From Tautonia plasticadhaerens (lineage in GTDB: Bacteria > Planctomycetota > Planctomycetia > Isosphaerales > Isosphaeraceae): a stretch of DNA of 64,000 nucleotides. The notes below the pieces were generated by a model that made no database searches, was not told where the DNA came from, and saw only the letters and a program-made list of their open reading frames with translations. The DNA is taken from contig NZ_CP036428.1 of NCBI RefSeq assembly GCF_007752535.1, positions 62,001 through 126,000 on the forward strand, read 5' to 3'. Every line of letters starts with the position of its first letter. Position 1 is the first letter of the stretch. The position numbers were made by a program, and so were the translations under genes. Positions 3 to 4,029 of the stretch are shown here, one piece after another.

Positions 3-338
3 ACCAAGACCCCCCATTACTTCCGCCGGGAGGACGACGAGCCGTTCGCCTTCGCCGGCTTGTGGGAACGCTGGTCGAAGGGCCCGGCGCCGGTCGAGAG
101 CGTCGCCATCATCACCACCGAGCCCAACGACCTGGTCGCCCCGGTCCACGACCGGATGCCGGCGATCCTCCGCCCCGAGGACTACGCCCAGAGGCTCGAC
201 CCGGAGGAGCAGGCGTCGGACCTGCACGCGCTCCTGGCCCCATTCCCGGCCGGGCTGATGGCGGCCCATCCGGTCGGCACGCTCGTCGGCAGCCCGAGGG
301 TCGACCGGCCCGAGTGCATCGAGCCGGTCGCCTCGTGA
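3..338 (+). CDS. SOS response-associated peptidase family (SRAP/YedK/HMCES-like), C-terminal part
   Basis: The frame is already open at the window edge, so only the last 111 residues are present and the start lies outside. The residues match the C-terminal half of SRAP proteins: FAFAGLWERW, then VAIITTEPN, then HDRMPAIL, followed by a short helical tail. Family members shield abasic sites in single-stranded DNA by forming a covalent thiazolidine link through Cys2; the His of HDRMP belongs to the active site. The gene converges on a compact relative at 372-842 and lies close to a translesion polymerase, which fits a DNA-damage tolerance group. The catalytic Cys2 cannot be seen because the 5' end is missing. 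Confidence 0.88.
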   Translation, partial: TKTPHYFRREDDEPFAFAGLWERWSKGPAPVESVAIITTEPNDLVAPVHDRMPAILRPEDYAQRLDPEEQASDLHALLAPFPAGLMAAHPVGTLVGSPRVDRPECIEPVAS

Positions 339-371: not shown

Positions 372-842
372 TCAGATCCGCTGGTCGATCAGCACCGGCA
401 TCCGGTCCGAGCCGGTCATGATCCTGTAGTAGTGGCTGGCCGGCTCGCACAGCATGTAGGCGACCGCCCAGCCCCGCTCGTCCGGCACCACCAGCCCCCG
501 GAACCCCGTCTCGATCAGATACCACACCCCCCGACGCTCCAGGCCGAACGACGCCGGGATCTCCACCGGCACCGACTCGATCCCCCGCCAGCCCCCCTCC
601 TCGATCGTCCGCAGCCACGTCCAGCCCGTCCGGGGCAGGGATCGGCTCTGGCCCCGCCCGTTCCCCCAGCGGACGACCTGGAGCCGGCCGTCCCGCCAGA
701 TCGGCAGCGCCGGCCACCGCTCCCGGTACAGGAAGCGGTACTCGTCCCGCTCGCCGCGGAGGTAGCGGCGATGGGCCATGCCGGGCCGCCCGATCAATTC
801 CGTGGGCAACTCGCTCCCCGCGACGGCGATCCCCTGGCACAC
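372..842 (-). CDS. Compact SRAP-like protein, 156 aa, with Met-Cys N-terminus
   Basis: The start is GTG (842-840) and the protein begins Met-Cys-Gln. Two regions line up by eye with SRAP proteins: VVRWGNGRG resembles their RWGL block, and the C-terminal TGSDRMPVLID resembles PVHDRMPAILRP of the neighbour at 3-338. The protein is much shorter than the roughly 200-230 residues usual for the family and lacks a clear middle part. The His of HDRMP is replaced by Ser, while Cys2, the residue that bonds to abasic DNA in SRAP, is present if initiator Met is removed. It is convergent with the SRAP gene and divergent from the Y-family polymerase, with a 59-bp gap to that gene's preferred start. The assignment to SRAP is inference from these short matches; it may instead be an unrelated conserved family. 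Confidence 0.6.
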   Translation of the reverse strand: MCQGIAVAGSELPTELIGRPGMAHRRYLRGERDEYRFLYRERWPALPIWRDGRLQVVRWGNGRGQSRSLPRTGWTWLRTIEEGGWRGIESVPVEIPASFGLERRGVWYLIETGFRGLVVPDERGWAVAYMLCEPASHYYRIMTGSDRMPVLIDQRI

Positions 843-866: not shown

Positions 867-894
867 TTGACTGATCCTATGTGCAGAGTATGCT
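867..894 (+). promoter_or_regulatory. Possible promoter for the Y-family polymerase gene
   Basis: TTGACT (867-872) is followed after 16 bases by TATGCT (889-894). If this works as -35/-10, transcription would begin near 901-902, exactly at the ATG preferred for the polymerase, giving a nearly leaderless mRNA. No Shine-Dalgarno sequence is visible before that ATG, which is consistent. The site lies between divergent genes. I recognise no LexA-type operator here. Confidence 0.3.
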
Positions 895-901
895 TCCGTC
901 C

Positions 902-2125
902 ATGAAGCGCCAAGGGCCGATCGGGCACGTCGACGCCGATTGTTATTACGTCGCCGCCGAGCGGGTGCGCCACGCGCACCTCGCCGGCTTGCCCGTCGGC
1001 GTGCTCGGCAACCAGGGCGCCTGCGTCATCGCCAAGAGCTACGAGATGAAGGCCGCCGGCGTCGGCACCGGCATGCCCATCTGGGACGCCATGGCCCTCT
1101 GCCCCGAAGGGGTCTACGTCAAGCGCGACTTCCGCTGGTACGAGGTCCTCTCCCGGCTGATGCTGGAGACGATGCGGGAGCTGTCCCCGAAGGTTGAATA
1201 CTATAGCATAGATGAATTCTACTTCGAGGTCGTCTCGCCCCGGGGGGGCGACGACCAGGAGGCCGCCCGGCTGGTCCGCGACCGGATCATGGAGCGGGTG
1301 CGGGTGCCGGTCACCGTCGGCATCGCCCGGACCCGCACCCTCGCCAAGCTCATCTCCGACGCCGCCAAGCCGTTCGGCGCCCGCGCCGTCCTCGACCCGG
1401 CCGCCGAGCACGCCCTGCTGGCCGCCCGCCCGGTCACCGACGTCACCGGCATCGCCGGCCGCCGGGAACGCCTGCTGCTCCCCCGGGGCATCCGCACCTG
1501 CCTCGACCTCGCACGGGCCGACCGCCGGATCATCCGGCGGGTCCTGACCGCCAGCGGCGAGGCCCTCTGGTGGGAACTCAACGGCGACCCCGTGATCCCG
1601 ATCAACGCCCAGCGGACCCCCCACAAGGTTCTCTCCCGCGGCGGCAGCTTCGGCGCGCCGACCGGCCGGCCGGAGGTCCTCTGGGCGTGGCTGGTCCGCA
1701 ACCTGGAGCGGCTCGTCGAGGAGCTGGCCTTCCATCGCGTCCTGGCCGGTCGGGTCGCCTTCTGGGTCGGCTATCGCGACGGGCACGCCAGCGAGGGGCG
1801 GGCGACGCCCGGGGTCCCGACCGACCGCTTCGACGTCCTGCTCGACGCGCTGCGGCCCTGCCTGCGGCGGGCCTGGGTGCCGGGGGCGATGGCGGCGCGG
1901 ATGCACCTCTTCGCCGAGGACCTGCGGCCCCACCTCCCCCGGCATCTCGGCCTCTTCGACGGCACGGGGCCGGGCGACGCGGCGACGGCGGTGAAGCGGG
2001 CGGTCAACGACCGGCACGGCCGCTTCGCCCTCCGCAGCGGCGCGACGCTGCCGCTGGGGCCGATCTACGCCGACCGGGCCAACGGCCACGACATCTGCGA
2101 CGTCCGGGGCAAGACCTGCTTCTGA
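902..2125 (+). CDS. Y-family DNA polymerase (UmuC/DinB-like translesion polymerase)
   Basis: The product copies past damaged template bases. Motifs of the palm domain are clear: VDADCYYVAAE near the N-terminus carries the first metal-binding Asp residues, VIAKSYEMKAAGVGTGMP matches the finger/palm region, and YSIDEFYFE holds the catalytic Asp-Glu pair. A helix-hairpin region follows (VTDVTGIAGRRERLLLPRGI) and then the little-finger domain. The length of about 407 residues is normal for UmuC-like enzymes. GTG 881 and ATG 890 are also in frame; ATG 902 is preferred because conservation begins just after it and a possible promoter overlaps the earlier codons. Neighbouring SRAP-type genes suggest a shared role in lesion handling. 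UmuC-like versus ImuB-like cannot be settled by eye, but the catalytic acids are intact, unlike in ImuB. Confidence 0.93.
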   Translation: MKRQGPIGHVDADCYYVAAERVRHAHLAGLPVGVLGNQGACVIAKSYEMKAAGVGTGMPIWDAMALCPEGVYVKRDFRWYEVLSRLMLETMRELSPKVEYYSIDEFYFEVVSPRGGDDQEAARLVRDRIMERVRVPVTVGIARTRTLAKLISDAAKPFGARAVLDPAAEHALLAARPVTDVTGIAGRRERLLLPRGIRTCLDLARADRRIIRRVLTASGEALWWELNGDPVIPINAQRTPHKVLSRGGSFGAPTGRPEVLWAWLVRNLERLVEELAFHRVLAGRVAFWVGYRDGHASEGRATPGVPTDRFDVLLDALRPCLRRAWVPGAMAARMHLFAEDLRPHLPRHLGLFDGTGPGDAATAVKRAVNDRHGRFALRSGATLPLGPIYADRANGHDICDVRGKTCF

Positions 2126-2786: not shown

Positions 2787-4029
2787 ATGGGGCATCTCGG
2801 CATCCTCTGCCCGAACACTCCCGGTCACCTCGACCCCATGACCGCCCTGGCCGACGCCCTCCGGCGGCGCGGCCACCGCGTCACCTTCTTCCTCCTGGGC
2901 GAGCCGACCGCCTCCGTCGCCCAGGCCGGCTTCGACGTCATCCCCATCGACAGCCCGCTCCTCCCGGTCCACGAGTACCGCGACCAGTTGCAGCGCCTCG
3001 GCTCCCTCGCCGGCCGGCCCGCCCTCCGCCACACCATCCGCCTGGGCGCACGCGCCGCCGAGGCCATCCTCGACGCCGGGCCCGCCCTCGTCGGGCGCGC
3101 CGGCGTCTCCGCACTGCTCGTCGACCAGGCCTCCCCGGCCGGCGGCACCGTCGCCGACCGCCTCGGCCTCCCCTTCGCCACCCCCTGCAACGCGCTCCCG
3201 CTGCACCCCGACCCCGACGTGCCCCCCTTCTTCACCCCCTGGGGCCCCCTGGGCCCGCGCCCGCAACCGCCTCGCCTGGGCGGCCCTGGACCGCCTCTAC
3301 GCCCCGATCCTCGCCCCGATCCGCCGCCATCGCGCCCGGCACCGCCTCCCCGCCCCGCGACGCCTCGCCGACACCTGGTCCGACCGCCTCCAGCTCAGCC
3401 AGCTCCCCGGGGCCCTGGACTTCCCCCGCCGGCGCCGCCCCCGCCGGCTCCGCCTCGTCGGCCCCCTGCGACGGCCGGCCGGCACGCCCACGGTCCCCTT
3501 CCCCTGGGGGTGCCTCGACGGCCGCCCGCTGATCTACGCCTCCTTCGGCACCCTCCAGAATCGCCGCCCCGATTCCTTCCGCATGGTCGCCGAGGCCTGC
3601 GCCGGCACCGGCCACCAGGTGGTCATCTCCACCGGCCACGGGGTCGCCCCCGGGGCCCTGGCCGGCCTGCCGGGCGGCCCGATCGTCGTGGGCTACGCCC
3701 CCCAGCGCGAGCTGCTGGCCCGGGCCGCCCTGGCGGTTACGCACGCCGGGCTGAACACCGTGCTCGACGCCCTGGGCGCCGGCGTGCCGCTGGTCGCCGT
3801 GCCGGTGACCAACGAGCAGCCCGGGATCGCCGCCCGGGTCGCCTGGGCCGGGGCCGGGGAGGTGCTGCCGCCGGGCCGGGCCACGGCGGGGCGCCTGCGG
3901 GACCTGGTCGGGCGGGTCGGCCGGGAGGGATCCTACCGGGCCGCGGCCGTGCGGGTCGCCGATTCGATCCGGTCGGGCGGCGGGGCGGAACGGGCCGCCG
4001 AGCTGGTCGAGAAGGACCTGCTGGCCTGA
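2787..4029 (+). pseudogene. MGT-type glycosyltransferase (UGT-like), frameshifted
   Basis: The first 150 or so codons from ATG 2787 read MGHLGILCPNTPGHLDPM, the glycine-rich N-terminal fold of macrolide/UDP-glycosyltransferases. At about 3236-3250 the coding frame moves by one base: before it the frame gives PPFFTPWG, after it RNRLAWAALDRLYAP. The C-terminal half carries LIYASFGTL and VTHAGLNTVLDALGAGVPLV, the nucleotide-sugar binding signature of the family, ending in ELVEKDLLA at 4029. Joined together the two frames give a full-length protein of about 410 residues, so the gene differs from an intact one by a single extra base in a G/C run. It may be a real inactivating mutation or a sequence error. 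No neighbour suggests the acceptor substrate. Confidence 0.8.

Follow-up and report, generated by a model that had tools for sequence, protein, structure and literature searches.

What is the small protein encoded between a SRAP gene and the gene of a Y-family DNA polymerase, and does it still act on abasic sites in the manner of SRAP? The window, by which we mean the whole stretch of 64,000 nucleotides analysed here (G000:C3:62001-126000), belongs to a planctomycete genome of 9.4 Mb with Paludisphaera (Isosphaeraceae) among its near relatives. The gene, here called mini-SRAP, has a convergent canonical SRAP gene, represented by its 3' part, on one side and the divergent polymerase gene on the other (Table 1). 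An earlier note, written from the sequence alone, had taken its product for a possible miniature SRAP relative and had suggested that the three genes could form an undescribed lesion-handling module.

Table 1. Features of the mini-SRAP locus (window coordinates)
Feature	Position	Strand	Basis
3' part of canonical SRAP gene, convergent	3..338	+	PF02586, E 5.2e-28; occasional neighbour
Mini-SRAP gene, putative SRAP-fold accessory protein, 156 aa	372..842	-	ORF; relatives in 59/99 genomes; fold match Z 8.9-10.4
Ser145 codon, in the position of catalytic His160	408..410	-	Structural register and hhalign; His in 3/61
Glu102 codon, aligned with YedK Glu105	537..539	-	Global profile alignment; Glu/Asp in 51/61
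Cys2 codon (YedK Cys2 equivalent)	837..839	-	Sequence; Cys in 51/61 family members
Conserved promoter-like element of the polymerase gene (TTGAC...GTNCANANTA...GTCC-ATG), divergent intergenic region	867..901	+	Common to most Isosphaeraceae loci
UmuC-like Y-family polymerase gene	902..2125	+	Pfam IMS, E 3.8e-35; IMS_C; GTYC-ATG context
RecA-NT-like stretch of the polymerase, including KRAVNDRHGRFALRSGATLPL	1976..2056	+	Kept in homologues; putative RecA-NT identity
Polymerase C-terminal tail HDICDVRGKTCF, candidate docking peptide	2087..2122	+	Near invariant in the polymerase group; putative docking

The small gene and its predicted fold

The 156-residue reading frame is present as the earlier note had described it, with a GTG-TGC start (Met-Cys) and the C-terminal end ...MTGSDRMPVLIDQRI, and it is a genuine gene on which purifying selection acts. 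Met-Cys is retained behind differing start codons (ATG or GTG) and differing upstream contexts, comparison with relatives gives a dN/dS of ~0.14-0.25, and all 10 substitutions that separate two copies of the gene in the window's own genome are synonymous. Homologues, forming a family of ~155 residues, turned up in 59 of the 99 related genomes examined, with 35-80% identity across planctomycete families, and the matches among 392 genomes sampled phylum-wide were confined to the same class. Residues E34, F37, P47, W59, G105, W107, Y139 and P149 are invariant in the 61 mini-SRAPs aligned.

The AlphaFold2 model obtained from this alignment (pLDDT 93.3, pTM 0.89) consists of a single SRAP-type domain, without a separate DNA-binding regulator domain. 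The best 15 structural matches given by VIA-align are all SRAP (2f20, 1zn6, HMCES, YedK and others), with Z of 8.9-10.4 versus 2.3 for the best unrelated chain, and SRAP entries also occupy the top ranks in Foldseek, with modest E-values (1.2e-2 and above). In the structural alignments, residue 2 of mini-SRAP falls on residue 2 in most SRAP entries, and residue 154 of the model corresponds to residue 169 of YedK and residue 219 of HMCES. Profile comparisons by hhalign matched mini-SRAP and SRAP only along the RMP strand in local mode, where SDRMPV is paired with HDRMPV, and gave the link a weak probability of ~20%; in global mode MC is paired with MC and GLE with FYE. No Pfam, NCBIfam or PHROG model matched the window protein at E up to 10, and the family profile recovered none of the SRAP genes of its own genome at E up to 1. 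As this direct profile-profile link is weak, the kinship rests on the fold, on the register and on a bridge through Methylophaga. The Methylophaga protein starts with MCGG and has IHSRWP close to the end. The small family to which it belongs matches the planctomycete mini-SRAP profile (E 2.7e-18) and, when aligned to SRAP, has FME under FYE and the histidine in place, and two Methylophaga proteins retrieved no Pfam or NCBIfam model above cut-off. Going by the predicted structure, mini-SRAP is a genuine SRAP-fold relative, as the note had supposed, whereas the Pfam family model fails to detect it.

The likeness to SRAP (PF02586; YedK, HMCES, YoqW) extends over the whole model and includes the Met-Cys N-terminus, the WG motif, a glutamate at the place of Glu105 and the RMP strand. 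Mini-SRAP differs in having 156 residues instead of 220-260, in lacking the part that follows YedK residue 169, in the serine that replaces His160 and in the dispensability of Cys2 across its family. UmuD is a LexA-type peptidase; a search of mini-SRAP for its S24 peptidase-type domain gave no match, and the predicted fold is that of SRAP instead. In a PDB sequence search the family profile found only the repeat protein BLIP-II, weakly and along a WG-rich stretch; we rejected this match as chance because the fold contradicts it. A viral or phage origin was likewise rejected, given that relatives were absent from phage records, that viral contigs yielded one short weak match and that viral structures yielded none of significance. 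Proteobacterial plasmid relatives annotated as hypothetical proteins (L158, L159, L160 and L161) have WGRR and FMEKD motifs, and an IHxRWP motif occurs in the plasmid relatives of Methylophaga and Pseudomonas.

Neighbouring polymerase and SRAP genes

The polymerase encoded in the window has the catalytic motifs VDAD and SIDE, and its ATG at 902 seems a better start than the GTG at 881, because the GTYC-ATG at that point is common to homologues. A RecA-NT-like stretch, KxxINxRxGRFxLRS, is conserved in the homologues, and a DUF4113 search of the window polymerase gave no match. The polymerases neighbouring mini-SRAP belong to one group, in which the C-terminal tail follows the consensus YDICDVRGKxCF; by analogy with the UmuC tail, which binds UmuD' according to the main text of PMC12926913, this tail would be a candidate docking peptide for mini-SRAP.

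With polymerase presence defined by E 1e-60, the 99 genomes comprise 54 with both genes, 39 with neither, 5 with mini-SRAP only and 1 with the polymerase only (Fisher p 7e-21, a value that overstates independence, the genomes being related), which bears out the tie to a Y-family polymerase gene suggested in the note. The polymerase-only genome has a truncated polymerase gene with a SRAP gene adjoining. Three of the mini-SRAP-only genomes (G039, G041 and G043) are fragmented assemblies, a fourth (G091) has a polymerase remnant alone beside the copy examined, and the fifth (G092, L098:6507-7067) has a stand-alone mini-SRAP with Cys, Glu and His that adjoins the gene of 30S ribosomal protein S9, with no polymerase. 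Among 64 mini-SRAP loci, the polymerase gene is present in 54 (co-directional and upstream in 45, divergent in 9) and absent from the fetched stretch in 10; in G002 and G003 it lies ~50-65 kb from mini-SRAP. Gaps are often -1 to 60 bp in the co-directional loci and 37-63 bp in the divergent ones, and in the window's clade the two genes diverge around one short intergenic region. The Methylophaga plasmid carries lexA, the polymerase gene and mini-SRAP in that order, with overlapping genes; no polymerase gene adjoins the plasmid relatives in Pseudomonas and Nitrosomonas.

In most Isosphaeraceae loci the polymerase gene is preceded by TTGAC-...-GTNCANANTA-...-GTYC-ATG, and the sequence farther upstream is unrelated (mean information 0.88 bits per column in the element, a figure inflated by anchoring, versus 0.19 farther upstream). 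Operator-like repeats upstream of the polymerase differ among clades (TGTYC-N4-GTNCA, GAAC-N4-GTTC or TACTGTNCAGTA-like), and for this reason we do not ascribe the operator-like element to LexA.

The canonical SRAP gene is a different kind of neighbour. Among 19 genomes with mini-SRAP, 12-13 have it, as do 14 among 20 genomes that lack mini-SRAP (Fisher p ~0.74-1), so that the two genes are independent at the genome level, and several genomes carry the polymerase/mini-SRAP pair without SRAP. It lies close by in ~6 of the 64 loci, which looks like more than chance for a gene of one or few copies, and in G067 (L097:5741-8118) one strand encodes, in succession, the polymerase, a Cys2-less mini-SRAP and a canonical SRAP, separated by 9 and 23 bp, an order that looks like a division of labour. 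We rejected SRAP as an obligate partner, and hence as the fixed third component that the note had envisaged, although the three genes form one operon in G067. The constant partner of mini-SRAP is the UmuC-like Y-family polymerase, not SRAP.

Active-site residues and possible roles

Cys2, as the note had observed, is kept: its TGC codon comes right after the start. It is found in 51 of the 61 family members and missing from 10. The note had also placed a serine where SRAP has the histidine before DRMP; Ser145 occupies this catalytic position in the register fixed by both structural end points, and hhalign gives the same pairing. The catalytic histidine of HMCES is His210. From the GLE/FYE pairing, Glu102 would match Glu105 of YedK. 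Arg4, Asn75 and Arg77 of SRAP have no apparent counterpart in mini-SRAP by alignment, and the NAR motif (Asn75, Arg77) was seen in no member of the family, the alignment being loose in that region. For Cys2, Glu102 and a histidine at 145, the 61 members divide into C/E/- (31), C/D/- (11), C/-/- (6), C/E/H (2), C/D/H (1) and those without the cysteine (10); one clade that keeps Cys2 has alanine or methionine in place of Glu102. The maximum-likelihood tree requires 7 changes of the Cys2 state, and well supported branches force no fewer than 5 of these.

In YedK, E105A and E105Q are the most damaging replacements for crosslinking and E105D is mild, while His160 mutants retain crosslinking at a reduced rate, the cost of H160A being at least 10-fold (PMC9436759). 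Since loss of His160 only slowed YedK and the glutamate is kept in the window protein, a slow crosslink by mini-SRAP would be possible; the irreversible binding to abasic sites proposed in the note finds no support in these data. Cys2 was lost repeatedly while the link with the polymerase was kept, which argues that crosslinking to abasic sites is not the whole of the conserved function, and the best reading of the residues is that the crosslinking chemistry may be weakened or optional.

As mini-SRAP lies beside the polymerase in nearly every genome having either, it is probably the helper subunit of this enzyme, and we hypothesize, with somewhat better than even confidence, that it is a SRAP-fold accessory subunit of the UmuC-like translesion polymerase. 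It would fill the place of UmuD' in Pol V, or of YolD/YqjX in Bacillus, and may bind the polymerase through the near-invariant tail; its SRAP groove may hold single-stranded DNA or a template with an abasic site, by which it would target or regulate lesion bypass. At abasic sites the window copy may yet be capable of slow crosslinking through Cys2 or of forming a Schiff base; the conserved role would not depend on this chemistry, given that Cys2 and the glutamate were lost several times from pairs that stayed linked. The loci without a polymerase in the fetched stretch and the solitary gene of G092 count against a subunit, and the retention of Cys2 in most members argues for some retained chemistry. 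More tentatively, and with the odds rather against it, the SRAP fold would have turned from a covalent shield of abasic sites into a lesion-targeting polymerase subunit, with the tail docking, the groove presenting an abasic or damaged template to the active site and several lineages left without any crosslinking residue.

It is also conceivable, but in our view unlikely, that mini-SRAP acts next to the polymerase as a repair factor in its own right and not as a subunit, being a small but active SRAP whose Cys2 shields abasic sites through a thiazolidine crosslink. The frequency of Cys2 and of Glu/Asp102 (51 of 61 each) would fit such a factor, as would the histidine also kept in three planctomycete members and in Methylophaga and the greater weight of Glu105 than of His160 in YedK (PMC9436759), but Cys2 was lost again and again with the polymerase pairing mostly intact, a Cys2-keeping clade has Ala or Met for the glutamate, Arg4, Asn75 and Arg77 seem not to be kept by alignment, and a stand-alone shield would be expected to pair less tightly with one polymerase group. 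We regard as still less probable a catalytically dead SRAP serving as a decoy or as a transcriptional or SOS regulator, the role that the divergent genes around a single intergenic region in the window's clade and the Cys2-less member in an operon with SRAP (G067) might suggest: most members are co-directional with and downstream of the polymerase, mostly keep Cys2 and Glu/Asp, and the model lacks a separate regulator domain. A decaying fragment of a SRAP pseudogene was rejected and has next to no chance, even if mini-SRAP is shorter than SRAP and the adjoining SRAP is itself frame-broken, as the family is full-length, with invariant residues, the low dN/dS and a complete and confidently predicted fold.

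An accessory subunit of this sort has precedents. In Pol V (UmuC-UmuD'2) and YqjW-YqjX/YolD a small subunit is also encoded beside a Y-family polymerase, often under LexA control, but UmuD' and YqjX have an SH3-type barrel in common, according to the main text of PMC12926913, whereas the predicted fold of mini-SRAP is that of SRAP. The same 2026 main text states briefly, in one sentence and once in the discussion, with taxa and residues unnamed, that UmuC-like polymerases are specifically linked to SRAP-related proteins, and reports that each of its 11 module types is supported by AlphaFold complexes (PMC12926913). Like mini-SRAP, the protein in that module is small, SRAP-related and tied to a UmuC-like Y-family polymerase, and its SRAP-like group is likely the mini-SRAP family; the module can thus no longer be called undescribed. 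SRAP genes were also found beside mutagenic polymerases in SOS operons with DinB, UmuCD and ImuAB-DnaE2 (Aravind, 2013; PMC3765255), but those SRAPs are full-length (220-260 residues), while mini-SRAP constitutes a reduced family missed by SRAP models. With both precedents, as far as the main text of the 2026 study goes, the association is of a known kind, and the present analysis adds a planctomycete family that co-occurs with the polymerase and has lost His, Cys and Glu step by step. In humans, the SRAP protein HMCES guards abasic sites and acts as an inhibitor of mutagenic bypass (PMC9436759); if mini-SRAP is indeed tied to a translesion polymerase, the same fold would be seen to promote or direct bypass, and its natural variants (C/E/H, C/E/-, -/E/- and -/-/-) would allow DNA binding to be separated from crosslinking.

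Copies and reading-frame breaks

The host genome (G000) holds further copies of these genes. On C1 and C2, a 1749-bp block, 97% identical, spans mini-SRAP and the polymerase and stops at their ends, and a diverged mini-SRAP copy with Arg2 adjoins a broken polymerase. A 3.3-kb segment is duplicated with 98.8% identity between C3 (L043 9809-13116) and C4 (L044 4679-7986); it contains the SRAP and mini-SRAP genes but only some 78 codons from the start of the polymerase gene, so that on C4 the polymerase is cut off and mini-SRAP is intact. The SRAP gene, whose stop at 338 leaves a 33-bp gap to the convergent mini-SRAP, extends as a whole over G000:C3:61665-62338 and has one reading-frame break, located outside the window. 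The C4 copy (G000:C4:6535-7205) likewise has one break, so that the gene is a pseudogene unless both copies have an assembly error in common; two further SRAP genes, on C1, are intact. Within the window, at 2788-4029, a glycosyltransferase-like frame is seemingly split over two frames near 3240; together with the SRAP break, this may reflect frame errors where the contig has G+C-rich runs, or else gene decay.
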